In this document: piece after piece, positions 5,664-40,778 of the stretch
How the letters are laid out: each line of letters begins with the position of its first letter
Numbering within the stretch: position 1 is the stretch's first letter
Assembly: GCF_008298035.1 (NCBI RefSeq)
Contig: NZ_CP042910.1
Span: 7,254,001-7,318,000, forward strand
Reading direction: 5' to 3'
Source of the DNA: Gimesia maris
GTDB lineage: Bacteria > Planctomycetota > Planctomycetia > Planctomycetales > Planctomycetaceae
Length of the DNA: 64,000 nt
Translations under genes and position numbers: made by a program
The notes under the pieces: model-generated
Seen by the model: only the letters and a program-made list of their open reading frames with translations
Told to the model about the DNA's origin: nothing
The model's database searches: none

Positions 5664-5736
5664 CACGGGCGGAGGGACTTGAACCCCCAACCGCTGGATT
5701 TGGAATCCAGTGCTCTGCCAATTGAGCTACACCCGT
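5664..5736 (-). tRNA. tRNA-Trp (CCA anticodon)
   Basis: A 73-base cloverleaf: the acceptor stem 5730-5736 pairs with 5665-5671 (7 pairs, one G-U), the discriminator is G, and the anticodon stem CTGGA/TCCAG encloses TTCCAAA, giving anticodon CCA. The T-loop GGTTCAAGTCC is standard. The terminal CCA is not encoded. It sits between rpmG and secE. Confidence 0.97.
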
Positions 5737-6097: not shown

Positions 6098-7294
6098 TTA
6101 CTCAACGATTTTGGTAACCACACCAGAACCAACGGTACGACCACCTTCGCGAATCGCGAAACGGCTACCTTCAGACATGGCGATTGGCTTACCGAGTTCA
6201 ACCTGAACTTCTACGTTATCACCAGGCATACACATTTCTGCGCCACCCATCAATGTCGTAGAACCAGTCACGTCCGTAGTACGGAAGTAGAACTGAGGAC
6301 GGTATCCATTGAAGAACGGAGTATGACGACCACCTTCGTCCTTGCTCAGCACGTATACCTGACCTTCGAACTTGGTGTGCGGAGGAATGGAGCCCTTGGC
6401 AGCCAGAACCTGACCACGTTCGACATCTTCCTTCTTGGTACCACGCAACAAAATACCCACGTTGTCACCAGCCATACCCTCGTTCAGAGTCTTCTGGAAC
6501 ATTTCCACGCCGGTACAGGTTGTTTCCTGTGTGTCACGCAGACCAACGATTTCTACTTTGTCGCCAACAGTGATTTTACCCTGCTCAATACGACCGGTTA
6601 CCACAGTACCACGACCAGCGATCGAGAACACGTCTTCAATCGCCATCAGGAATGGCTTGTCGGCTTCACGTTCAGGAGCTTCGATATCGCTATCCAGAGC
6701 ATCCATCAACTCACCGATACAGGCATTGAACTTCTCGTCCCCAGGATGATCGAGAGCACCCTTGGCGTTACCACGGACGATTGTAATGGAATCACCATCA
6801 AAACCGTACTTGGTCAGCAGTTCGCGCACTTCCATTTCAACCAGCTCGAGCAACTCTTCGTCGTCGACCAGGTCACACTTATTCAGAAAGACAACCAGCG
6901 AAGGCACATCCACCTGACGAGCGAGCAGAATGTGCTCACGCGTCTGAGGCATCGGGCCGTCAGCAGCGGAGACCACCAGAATGGCACCATCCATCTGGGC
7001 AGCACCGGTGATCATATTTTTGATATAGTCGGCGTGACCGGGACAGTCGATATGAGCGTAGTGACGAGTTTCGCTTTCGTACTCCACGTGACTCACAGCA
7101 ATTGTCACAGTCTTGGTATCGTCGCGAACGGTTCCGCCCTTCGCAACATCAGCATAACTCTTCATCTGGGCAAGACCCTTTTCGCTCTGTACCGCCAGCA
7201 AAGCTGTTGTCAGAGTTGTCTTACCATGGTCGATGTGTCCAATCGTACCTACGTTTACGTGCGGCTTTGTTCGCTCAAAGACTTCCTTAGCCAT
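6098..7294 (-). CDS. tuf: Elongation factor Tu
   Basis: GTPase that delivers aminoacyl-tRNA to the ribosome. The 398 residues include the P-loop GHIDHGKT (19-26), DCPGH (about 83-87), NKCD (about 138-141) and complete domains 2 and 3 ([32 protein letters not shown], and the C-terminus [14 protein letters not shown]). The odd part is switch I: where EF-Tu normally reads RGITI, this protein reads KTVTI (61-65), and the preceding loop GGTVRDDT is also unlike the usual one. The Mg-coordinating Thr (64) is kept. The gene follows four tRNA genes and precedes rpmG. Confidence 0.97.
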
Positions 7295-7440: not shown

Positions 7441-7518
<78 letters not shown>

Positions 7519-7556
7519 ACTTTTTGATGTTCAATCGAATCGCAACTCTTATAAAA

Positions 7557-7627
7557 AGCGGGTGAAGGGAATCGAACCCTCACAACCAGCTTGGAAGGCT
7601 GGGGCTCTACCGTTGAGCTACACCCGC
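7557..7627 (-). tRNA. tRNA-Gly (TCC anticodon)
   Basis: A 71-base cloverleaf with acceptor GCGGGTG/CACCCGC (7621-7627 with 7558-7564). The anticodon stem CCAGC/GCTGG encloses CTTCCAA, giving TCC. CCA is not encoded. It corresponds to E. coli glyT. Confidence 0.97.
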
Positions 7628-7665
7628 ACTGTACTGTGACTCAGTCAAACTACAACATCTATAAT

Positions 7666-7747
<82 letters not shown>

Positions 7748-7830
7748 CAACCAGCCGAAGCTGGATTTTACAAACCTAACGCCACAAATAAGTTAACTAA
7801 TTATTTTCATGTGGCAATCCAGGCAAAAAG

Positions 7831-7903
7831 AGCTAGCGGTGGGAATCGAACCCACAACCTTCGGTTTACAAAACCGATGCTCTGCCGATTGAGCTACGCT
7901 AGC
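7831..7903 (-). tRNA. tRNA-Thr (TGT anticodon)
   Basis: A 73-base cloverleaf with acceptor GCTAGCG/CGCTAGC (7897-7903 with 7832-7838). The anticodon stem TCGGT/ACCGA encloses TTTGTAA, giving TGT. CCA is not encoded. It is the first gene of the tRNA-tuf series and corresponds to E. coli thrU. Confidence 0.97.
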
Positions 7904-38969: not shown

Positions 38970-40778
38970 ATGGCTACAGAGCCCCGTCTGATTCGAAACT
39001 TTTCGATCGTCGCTCACATCGATCATGGAAAGAGTACGCTGGCAGATCAGCTGTTGCTGCAGACCGGTGCCATCACGCAACGCGAATTCAAAGCGCAGAT
39101 CCTGGACGACCTGCAGATTGAGCAGGATCGCGGGATTACCGTAAAAGCACGCACGGTTGTAATCTACTATGAGTACAAAGGGGAGAAGTACGAACTTAAC
39201 CTCATCGACACACCCGGCCACGTGGACTTCCATTATGAAGTTTCCCGCAGCCTGGCGGCCTGTGAAGGCGCGCTGCTGCTGGTCGATGCGTTTCAGGGTG
39301 TGCAGGCACAAAGCGTGGCGAATGCTTACGCCAGTATCAATGCGAACCTGACGATCATTCCGGTGGTGAATAAGATCGACCTGCCGATCACGCGGATTGA
39401 TGAAGTGCTGGAAGAAGTCGAAACCGTCATTGGTCTGGATCCTTCCGACGCCCTGATGGTAAGCGCCAAAACCGGTATTGGTGTCAAAGATGTTCTGGAT
39501 GCCATCGTCGAACGCATTCCTCCCCCCAGTGGTCTGGCAGATGCACCACTCAAAGCGCTGGTGTTTGACAGCAAGTACGACCACTACCGGGGTGTGGTTA
39601 CCTACGTGCGTGTGGTACAGGGAACAATCGAAAAAGGCCAGACCGTTGTTCTGATGCGGGGTGGCACAAAGCTGGACATTATCGATATTGGCCAGTTCAC
39701 ACCGCATATGAAAGCCGTCAAATCACTGGGACCAGGCCAGGTAGGCTACCTCGTCAGCGGCGCGAAAGAACTTGATAACGTGCATGTGGGGGATACCATC
39801 GCCAACCCACGGAATCTTCCCGAAGCACCGCTGCCCGGTTATCAGAAACCGCAACAAATGGTGTTCTGCGGCATGTACCCGATTGAAGCGACTGACTTCG
39901 AAAAACTGCGGGACGAATTATCAAAACTGAGCCTGAACGACGCCAGCTTCAGCTTCGTCCCGGAAACCAGTGATGCGCTCGGCTTCGGTTTCCGTTGTGG
40001 CTTCCTGGGCATGCTGCATATGGAAATCATTCAGCAGCGACTCGAGCAGGAATTCAATATCGACCTGCTGCAGACCGCACCAAACGTGACCTATGAAATT
40101 CTGGAGCGGAACGGCGATATTGTGCTGATCGATAATCCTCAGGATGTCCCCGATGCCAGCCGCATCGACGAATTCCGTGAACCAATCGCGCTGGTCACAT
40201 TTATTCTGCCGGCTGAAAACATTGGCACGATGATGCAGCTGTGTGCGGATCGACGCGGCATTTATAAAAATACAGAGTACCTGGGAACAAATCGTGCGCA
40301 ATTGATTTACGAGTTGCCTCTCGCCGAAATCGTGTACGACATGTACGACCGCCTGAAGAGTGCCACCCGCGGCTATGGAACAATGGATTATGAAATCCTC
40401 GGGTTCCGCCCCGCTGACCTGGTGAAGATGGATATTCTCGTCAAAAGTGAAAAAGTCGACGCACTGTCGACCATCGTGCACCGCTCGCAGTCCGAACGCC
40501 GTGGACGTGCCCTGGTGAAACGCCTCAAGGAAGAGATCTCCAAACATCAGTTTGAAATCCCGGTCCAGGCTGCTATCGGCGGAAAGATCATTGCCCGCGA
40601 AACGATCAAAGCCCTGAAAAAGAATGTGACCGCCAAATGTTATGGTGGTGATATCACGCGGAAGCGCAAGCTTTGGGAAAAGCAGAAAGAGGGCAAAAAA
40701 CGTCTCAAACAGTTCGGGCAGGTCGAAATTCCACAGAAAGCGTTTCTGGCCGTACTCGATGCTACCAAGGACGAATAA
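38970..40778 (+). CDS. lepA: Elongation factor 4
   Basis: Ribosome-associated GTPase of 602 residues, standard length for LepA. It shows the P-loop AHIDHGKST, a canonical switch I QDRGITVKARTV, DTPGHVDF, VVNKIDLP, and the LepA-specific C-terminal domain with ALVKRLKEEISKHQFEIPVQ and CYGGDITRKRKLWEKQK (read as parts). It is believed to help with stalled or stressed ribosomes. Its switch I is normal, unlike that of EF-Tu in this same window. Confidence 0.97.
   Translation: MATEPRLIRNFSIVAHIDHGKSTLADQLLLQTGAITQREFKAQILDDLQIEQDRGITVKARTVVIYYEYKGEKYELNLIDTPGHVDFHYEVSRSLAACEGALLLVDAFQGVQAQSVANAYASINANLTIIPVVNKIDLPITRIDEVLEEVETVIGLDPSDALMVSAKTGIGVKDVLDAIVERIPPPSGLADAPLKALVFDSKYDHYRGVVTYVRVVQGTIEKGQTVVLMRGGTKLDIIDIGQFTPHMKAVKSLGPGQVGYLVSGAKELDNVHVGDTIANPRNLPEAPLPGYQKPQQMVFCGMYPIEATDFEKLRDELSKLSLNDASFSFVPETSDALGFGFRCGFLGMLHMEIIQQRLEQEFNIDLLQTAPNVTYEILERNGDIVLIDNPQDVPDASRIDEFREPIALVTFILPAENIGTMMQLCADRRGIYKNTEYLGTNRAQLIYELPLAEIVYDMYDRLKSATRGYGTMDYEILGFRPADLVKMDILVKSEKVDALSTIVHRSQSERRGRALVKRLKEEISKHQFEIPVQAAIGGKIIARETIKALKKNVTAKCYGGDITRKRKLWEKQKEGKKRLKQFGQVEIPQKAFLAVLDATKDE

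Follow-up and report, generated by a model that had tools for sequence, protein, structure and literature searches.

The sole EF-Tu of Gimesia maris carries an alternative switch I segment whose distribution is at odds with the phylogeny of the remaining protein

Switch I (G2) of EF-Tu typically contains the motif RGITI, which to our knowledge has been treated as near-universal in translational GTPases and is also present in EF-1A. The EF-Tu encoded in the window, the whole stretch of 64,000 nucleotides of Gimesia maris DNA analyzed here, reads KTVTI at this place, with only the threonine and the last isoleucine of the motif retained. This raises the question of whether the gene encodes a regular EF-Tu and, if it does, where its switch I came from and what it may change.

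The tuf gene of Gimesia maris

The protein was recognized by the NCBIfam EF-Tu equivalog profile TIGR00485 over residues 1–398 with 668.5 bits (cut-off, 522.4 bits; margin, about 146 bits), passing the cut-off without RGITI even though this motif is typical of EF-Tu. Reading of the open reading frame (ORF) found the GTPase motifs GHxDHGKT (G1), DCPGH (G3) and NKCD (G4) all intact. The gene lies in a standard housekeeping locus, in the order tRNA-Thr(tgt), tRNA-Tyr, tRNA-Gly, tRNA-Thr(ggt), tuf, tRNA-Trp (Table 1), and the ORFs beyond tRNA-Trp were identified by reading as secE, nusG, rplK, rplA, rplJ and rplL. The same upstream tRNA order was found at 2 further loci, one with the alternative switch I (L212) and one with RGITI (L213). 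The initial annotation had described the replacement of R, G and the first I by K, T and V next to a retained Thr and following I, a normal P-loop, DCPGH and NKCD, and a standard tuf locus; ORF reading and the tRNA scan bore out this description.

Table 1. Features of the tuf locus and of switch I, with positions in the window
Feature	Position	Strand	Basis
tuf, encoding EF-Tu (398 aa, ATG start, sole genome copy)	6098..7294	minus	ORF reading, copy search, profile match
tRNA-Trp (cca), downstream of tuf	5664..5736	minus	tRNA scan
tRNA-Thr(ggt), tRNA-Gly(tcc), tRNA-Tyr(gta), tRNA-Thr(tgt), upstream of tuf	7446..7903	minus	tRNA scan
Switch I cassette, residues 47–63, whose letters track class best on independent pairs; weaker flanks about 45 to 67	7106..7156	minus	
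Switch I residues 50–65, 16 residues versus 14; this form basic on average, RGITI form acidic	7100..7147	minus	
K61-T62-V63-T64-I65, replacing R58-G59-I60-T61-I62	7100..7114	minus	

A search of the complete genome, a single contig of 7.8 Mb, returned one EF-Tu and, at E ≤ 0.001, no second tuf, canonical or other, so that no canonical copy elsewhere in the genome carries the main role, a scenario raised in the initial annotation. Seven other proteins matched at this threshold, with 26–35% identity to EF-Tu; by reading, they are TypA, IF2, 2 LepA-like and 3 EF-G-like proteins. The alternative loop is absent from all 7: TypA, both LepA-like proteins and 2 of the EF-G-like proteins have RGITI or RGITV, and IF2 has GGIT. 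The remaining one of the 3 EF-G-like proteins (L006–L008, names by reading) has HRISI at switch I. The LepA-like protein encoded in the window (L004, match at about 38973–39821; name by reading) reads RGITV, as initially stated, and the other (L005) reads RGITI.

Among 17 genomes of the genus, including that of G. maris, 15 have a full-length EF-Tu match (93–100% identical) and 2 have a fragment (98–99%), and KTVTI is present in all 8 other same-genus genomes for which switch I was displayed. Because these genomes carry a matching EF-Tu with KTVTI, the motif is not a sequencing error, and the initial view of it as a real, biological feature shared with relatives holds. By all signs in its sequence and setting, G. 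maris EF-Tu is a normal, sole and working EF-Tu.

A second, divergent EF-Tu paralog (L156–L165) was found in 10 of the 17 genus genomes (the G. maris genome being counted in the 17) and also in family f2 (L219). The genus paralog is 64–69% identical to G. maris EF-Tu, has the alternative switch I and is absent from the G. maris genome. In one congener, it (L274) is flanked on one side by the gene for an AAA-domain protein and on the other by histidine kinase and ABC transporter genes, the transporter having a PBP-like protein.

Two forms of switch I

Switch I positions are given here in what we take to be the numbering of E. coli EF-Tu without the initiator Met. Compared with the usual IDxAPEExxRGITI, G. 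maris EF-Tu has D50 changed to A, P53 to G, R58 to K61, G59 to T62 and I60 to V63, in a loop that is 2 residues longer, and retains T61 (T64) and I62 (I65), T64 presumably being the Mg-binding threonine with the role of Thr61. We aligned 284 EF-Tus after removal of near-copies (>96.5% identity), fragments and repeat fetches; the alignment comprised 116 sequences with a short alternative form, 55 with a long alternative form, 112 with RGITI and 1 other. Six features were scored, namely D50, P53, R58 or K, G59, I60 and a loop length of 14. All 6 canonical states are missing (with K for R58) in 170 of the 284 sequences and all 6 are present in 106. The exceptions are 6 sequences deviating only at I60 (5 RGITI sequences with V or L, 1 alternative sequence with I), 1 deviating only at P53 (an RGITI sequence with L) and the degenerate paralog L370. 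With regard to the two forms, no INTERMEDIATES was seen among the 284 EF-Tus, and, L370 aside, there were no intermediates among them at R58, G59, D50 or in loop length. Thus, the 6 features switch together, the exceptions being conservative changes at I60 and P53 and one degenerate paralog.

That paralog, L370, and L371 come from 2 Acidobacteriota genomes (G716 and G806), in which they stand beside an alternative-form EF-Tu; their switch I reads AGVPL, with Pro in place of the Mg-binding Thr.

In the alternative form, a basic loop of greater length, in which K, R and K are conserved, takes the place of the acidic APEE(K/R)xRG stretch, and the net charge of residues 50–65 changes from a mean of −1.24 in the RGITI form (range −2 to 0, n = 112) to +1.50 in the short form (range 0 to 3, n = 116) and +1.84 in the long form (range 1 to 3, n = 55). 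The short type follows KGGxxRDxxK and the long type KASESxxRRDxTK. The position of R58 is occupied by K in 171/171 alternative sequences, and R57, four residues upstream of that K, is present in the short type in 55/55 sequences of one alignment and in 112/116 of the larger one. At the gate position of Ile60, the alternative form has a hydrophobic residue (V/L). Two loop sub-variants, TVRSADKTVTI (L205–L207) and GGxQRGExKILTI (L237, L245, L256 and L261), lack the usual D after R.

Distribution of the two forms

We scanned 84,980 species, each represented by one genome, and followed the best 80 loci, of which 77 were usable after L057, L070 and L083 had been filtered out. Among these, 39 were RGITI and 38 alternative, the latter comprising, among the matches listed, 29 of the short and 9 of the long type (VAKASESQGRRDxTKILTI and the like). 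By record titles, the alternative sequences among the matches listed belong to at least 11 phyla, most being metagenome-assembled genomes (MAGs): Planctomycetota, Myxococcota (Sorangium, Polyangium), Omnitrophota, Elusimicrobiota, Verrucomicrobiota, Kiritimatiellota, Acidobacteriota, Goldiibacteriota, Bipolaricaulota, Caldifarciminota (WOR-3) and Tayloriibacteriota. In 17 whole genomes chosen for carrying the alternative form, all 22 EF-Tu genes with a readable switch I are alternative; a fragment in these genomes (L111) does not contain the switch I region.

A 62-residue peptide was then used to survey single phyla. It matched 339 of the 392 Planctomycetota genomes (E ≤ 1e-9); with E ≤ 1e-15, matches were obtained in 92 of 140 Myxococcota, 139 of 145 Verrucomicrobiota and 98 of 149 Acidobacteriota. 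The matches fell into one strong and one weak group in Planctomycetota, Myxococcota and Verrucomicrobiota; Acidobacteriota had no strong match, and their alternative forms are of the long type. Of 30 loci fetched for each phylum, the 26 kept for Myxococcota comprised 16 RGITI and 10 alternative, the 27 kept for Verrucomicrobiota were all alternative (RGITI Verrucomicrobiota were fetched separately) and the 26 kept for Acidobacteriota comprised 21 alternative (long) and 5 RGITI; because fetching favors query matches, these per-survey counts are not frequencies. Planctomycetota hold both forms, even inside one genus, and both were found within each of families f69, f78, f89, f34, f59 and f14. 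The same tRNA-flanked locus holds either form in f14 (L212, L213) and f69 (L200, L201, L141, L202); a tRNA scan covered 23 loci, 12 of which had no tRNA.

Phylogeny of the EF-Tu body

To follow the body of the protein, a tree was built from 81 EF-Tus selected for contrasts, with the switch I columns (residues 32–72) removed and L203 left out. It contains 11 changes of form, at least 8 of which are forced by supported branches; many of its sequences are from MAGs and several deep branches are weak. The alternative forms were not united in any of the 200 bootstrap trees (the bootstrap had not fully converged), and the hypothesis that they form one clade was rejected (AU p = 0.000679, at a cost of 200 log units), the tested group being defined by the trait whose columns had been left out. 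An earlier test of the single clade on 90 sequences gave p = 0.0176. A 280-sequence tree, from which, as from the column test below, L203, L218, L254 and L370 were left out, has 22 changes of form, at least 9 of them forced.

Clades mixing the two forms comprise genus g120 of f69 (99/95; L200, RGITI, with L201, L141 and L202), f73/f78 (100/93; L197 and L209, RGITI, with L210 and L042), f89 (100/99; L195, RGITI, with L211) and Patescibacteria (100/99; Taylorbacteria with Moranbacteria); in addition, L025 falls among Verrucomicrobiota (99/93) and L358 among Acidobacteriota (97/94). With residues 110–398 alone, the first 4 of these clades hold, with SH-aLRT of 97–99, and the Verrucomicrobiota and Acidobacteriota clades were not among the supported ones. 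For f34 and f59, the bodies carrying the two forms do not group together within the family in the 81-sequence tree, and replacement of the whole gene is therefore likely there. The placement of f14 is unstable, with L213 joining L212/L214 in one tree but not in the 81-sequence tree. Overall, the body of EF-Tu tracks the organism, whereas the switch I segment does not.

The omitted L203 belongs to a tuf pair of genome G250 (L203, L204) with a seeming swap of the N-terminal part. We set the pair aside as a probable assembly chimera, because each of the two contigs stops at tuf or close to it and the longest exact DNA match between the genes (26 nt) falls at the junction. L203 was part of the 284-sequence alignment and of the tree in which L213 joined L212/L214; the 280-sequence tree and the column test, from which it was removed, gave an unchanged picture.

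To assess the extent of the segment, we used 9 independent pairs, each connected through supported branches (214 columns, L203 removed; its inclusion gave a similar outcome). Columns 51, 54 and 59–62 track the class in 9 of 9 pairs, column 56 in 8.5 and column 63 in 7.5; columns 47, 52, 53, 55, 57 and 58 do so in 5–6.9, and columns 45, 46, 48, 49 and 66 reach 3.4–4.8. The exchanged part therefore would span at least residues 47–63 and at most slightly more. Scattered columns (36, 174, 210, 137 and 170) track the class in at most 4.6 of 9 pairs, similar to the outer flanks, and the edges of the cassette are thus soft. Among the columns outside 36–67, examined for compensation elsewhere in EF-Tu, the best (174, 210, 137 and 170) reached 4.2–4.6 of 9 pairs, too few for a sign test.

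Origin of the alternative form

We propose that the alternative switch I is a cassette of about 20 residues with a history of its own: it would have been gained or lost as a unit on several occasions, with the remainder of tuf staying in its lineage. Its most likely route from one tuf gene to another would be homologous recombination over short tracts or gene conversion, possibly anchored in the conserved P-loop and DCPGH flanks; block replacement with the flanks kept fits such short-tract recombination. Since RGITI is common to other translational GTPases, it is probably the ancestral state, from which the alternative form would have arisen. DNA identity in the cassette is not raised, being 0.786 compared with 0.859 in a conserved control block (564 amino acid-matched distant pairs), and the events are therefore either old or from donors outside the sample. 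Our preferred reading, which we regard as probable, is that of a normal, sole EF-Tu with an exchangeable switch I cassette, replaced as a block and retuning passage of the tRNA acceptor stem. The more general proposal, of at least two interchangeable switch I "alleles", that is, a block of about 20 residues moving between lineages independently of the gene and representing two settings of a tRNA-release and proofreading gate, is tentative and falls just short of an even chance.

The rival that survives best, and which we nonetheless hold to be unlikely, is an ancient duplication, after which two tuf types would have coexisted in many ancestors, conversion would have homogenized their bodies and not their cassettes, and copies would have been lost at random. 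Both forms do occur together in Acidobacteriota genomes G700 (L347/L366), G730 (L346/L367), G755 (L349/L368) and G842 (L350, a fragment, with L369), genomes that are also a possible source for gene conversion, and conversion of tuf genes is described in passages of PMC4342817. However, the copies in G700 and G755 are only 74–75% identical in protein, so their bodies have not been homogenized, and the 5 readable second copies in the 17 genomes chosen for the alternative form are all alternative too. Convergence, by which point mutations and small insertions would have produced the same loop repeatedly, appears less probable still. It would account for the lack of a DNA signature of transfer in the cassette, and the short and long types could be separate origins, but closely similar 16-residue strings recur in distant lineages and the 284 sequences hold, apart from L370, no intermediate at R58, G59, D50 or in loop length. 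We give very little credence to a specialized or drug-tolerant rather than housekeeping EF-Tu: switch I is near the elfamycin site, but the protein is the only EF-Tu of its genome and is encoded in the standard locus. Least credible of all is the planctomycete lineage trait suggested in the initial annotation, which the strong peptide matches of all own-genus and own-family rows (best E 1.7e-32 or lower) would favor, but all 30 Planctomycetota loci obtained with an RGITI query (selected by that query, hence no frequency) are RGITI, so the phylum is mixed, and the alternative form is widespread in Myxococcota, Verrucomicrobiota, Acidobacteriota and others, a finding that the annotation itself had named as decisive against it.

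Possible function of the alternative loop

The effect of the alternative switch I would most plausibly fall on the tRNA. Passages from simulation work (PMC12405580, PMC10495418) describe switch I with R58 passing the acceptor-stem grooves and docking on domain III before tRNA accommodation, and in EF-G, according to a passage of PMC8505512, Arg58 of switch I touches A2662. Given its greater length, its basic character, the K at the R58 position and an additional conserved R, the alternative loop would be expected to hold the acceptor stem in another way and to change the affinity and rate with which the stem is passed. The most likely role of the cassette is therefore to determine how fast or how accurately aminoacyl-tRNA is released and proofread. 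GTP hydrolysis should still work, since the Mg-binding Thr and the hydrophobic gate residue are kept. As far as these passages go, acceptor-stem passage would be a better candidate for the effect than the GTPase activation, EF-Ts exchange or antibiotic binding considered initially.

In AlphaFold models, residues 55–64 are under pLDDT 50 for both the alternative and the canonical protein, the canonical model being built on the suspected chimera L203, and the models thus lend no support to the functional part of the proposal. DSSP on these models, too weak to use, assigned a helix at 47–50 in the alternative and helices at 47–52 and 54–58 in the canonical protein. Of 19 genomes, 9 yielded a 16S rRNA, 3 of the 9 being without an anchor match, and the h14 stretch differs by one base in the f89 alternative/RGITI pair (one pair only).

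Comparison with known systems

No description of the alternative loop was found in the parts of the open-access literature covered. Likewise, among 58 distinct PDB sequences matching the 62-residue peptide (three alignments viewed), no solved structure with this loop was seen: the best-scoring sequence has 83 bits (the peptide scores 131 against its own genome) and is aligned only from residue 14 of the peptide onward, and the chains aligning from residue 2 or 3 are 2 residues shorter. Genomes from many phyla have no EF-Tu form other than this charge-inverted one, which implies that R58, G59 and D50 are dispensable. Genus g120 and families f73/f78 and f89 offer natural switch I swaps in related bodies, and with the alternative form the switch I gate model can be tested directly. 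In E. coli, according to a passage of PMC5574714, a whole foreign tuf from outside the gammaproteobacteria did not support growth alone, a failure with which this second switch I solution contrasts.

Among known EF-Tu types, the nearest parallel is actEF-Tu, including Streptomyces tuf3 (Atkinson 2015, PMC4342817), which is likewise a distinct type and, in passages of that 2015 census, the only EF-Tu-like subfamily that stands clearly apart from EF-Tu itself. As described there, however, actEF-Tus are extra divergent copies in actinomycetes beside a canonical EF-Tu, whereas G. maris has one tuf and its alternative EF-Tu is the sole copy. The switch I gate for aminoacyl-tRNA selection (Girodat 2020, via PMC10495418 and PMC12405580) involves the same structural element, but the passages concerned deal with the R58 loop. 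The other translational GTPases of G. maris share the GTPase domain motifs and differ by having RGITI/RGITV, GGIT or HRISI. Compared with canonical EF-Tu (TIGR00485), finally, the G. maris protein has the same length, P-loop, DCPGH, NKCD and locus, and differs in residues 50–65, which number 16, include KTVTI, have lost D50 and P53 and belong to a form that is basic on average.
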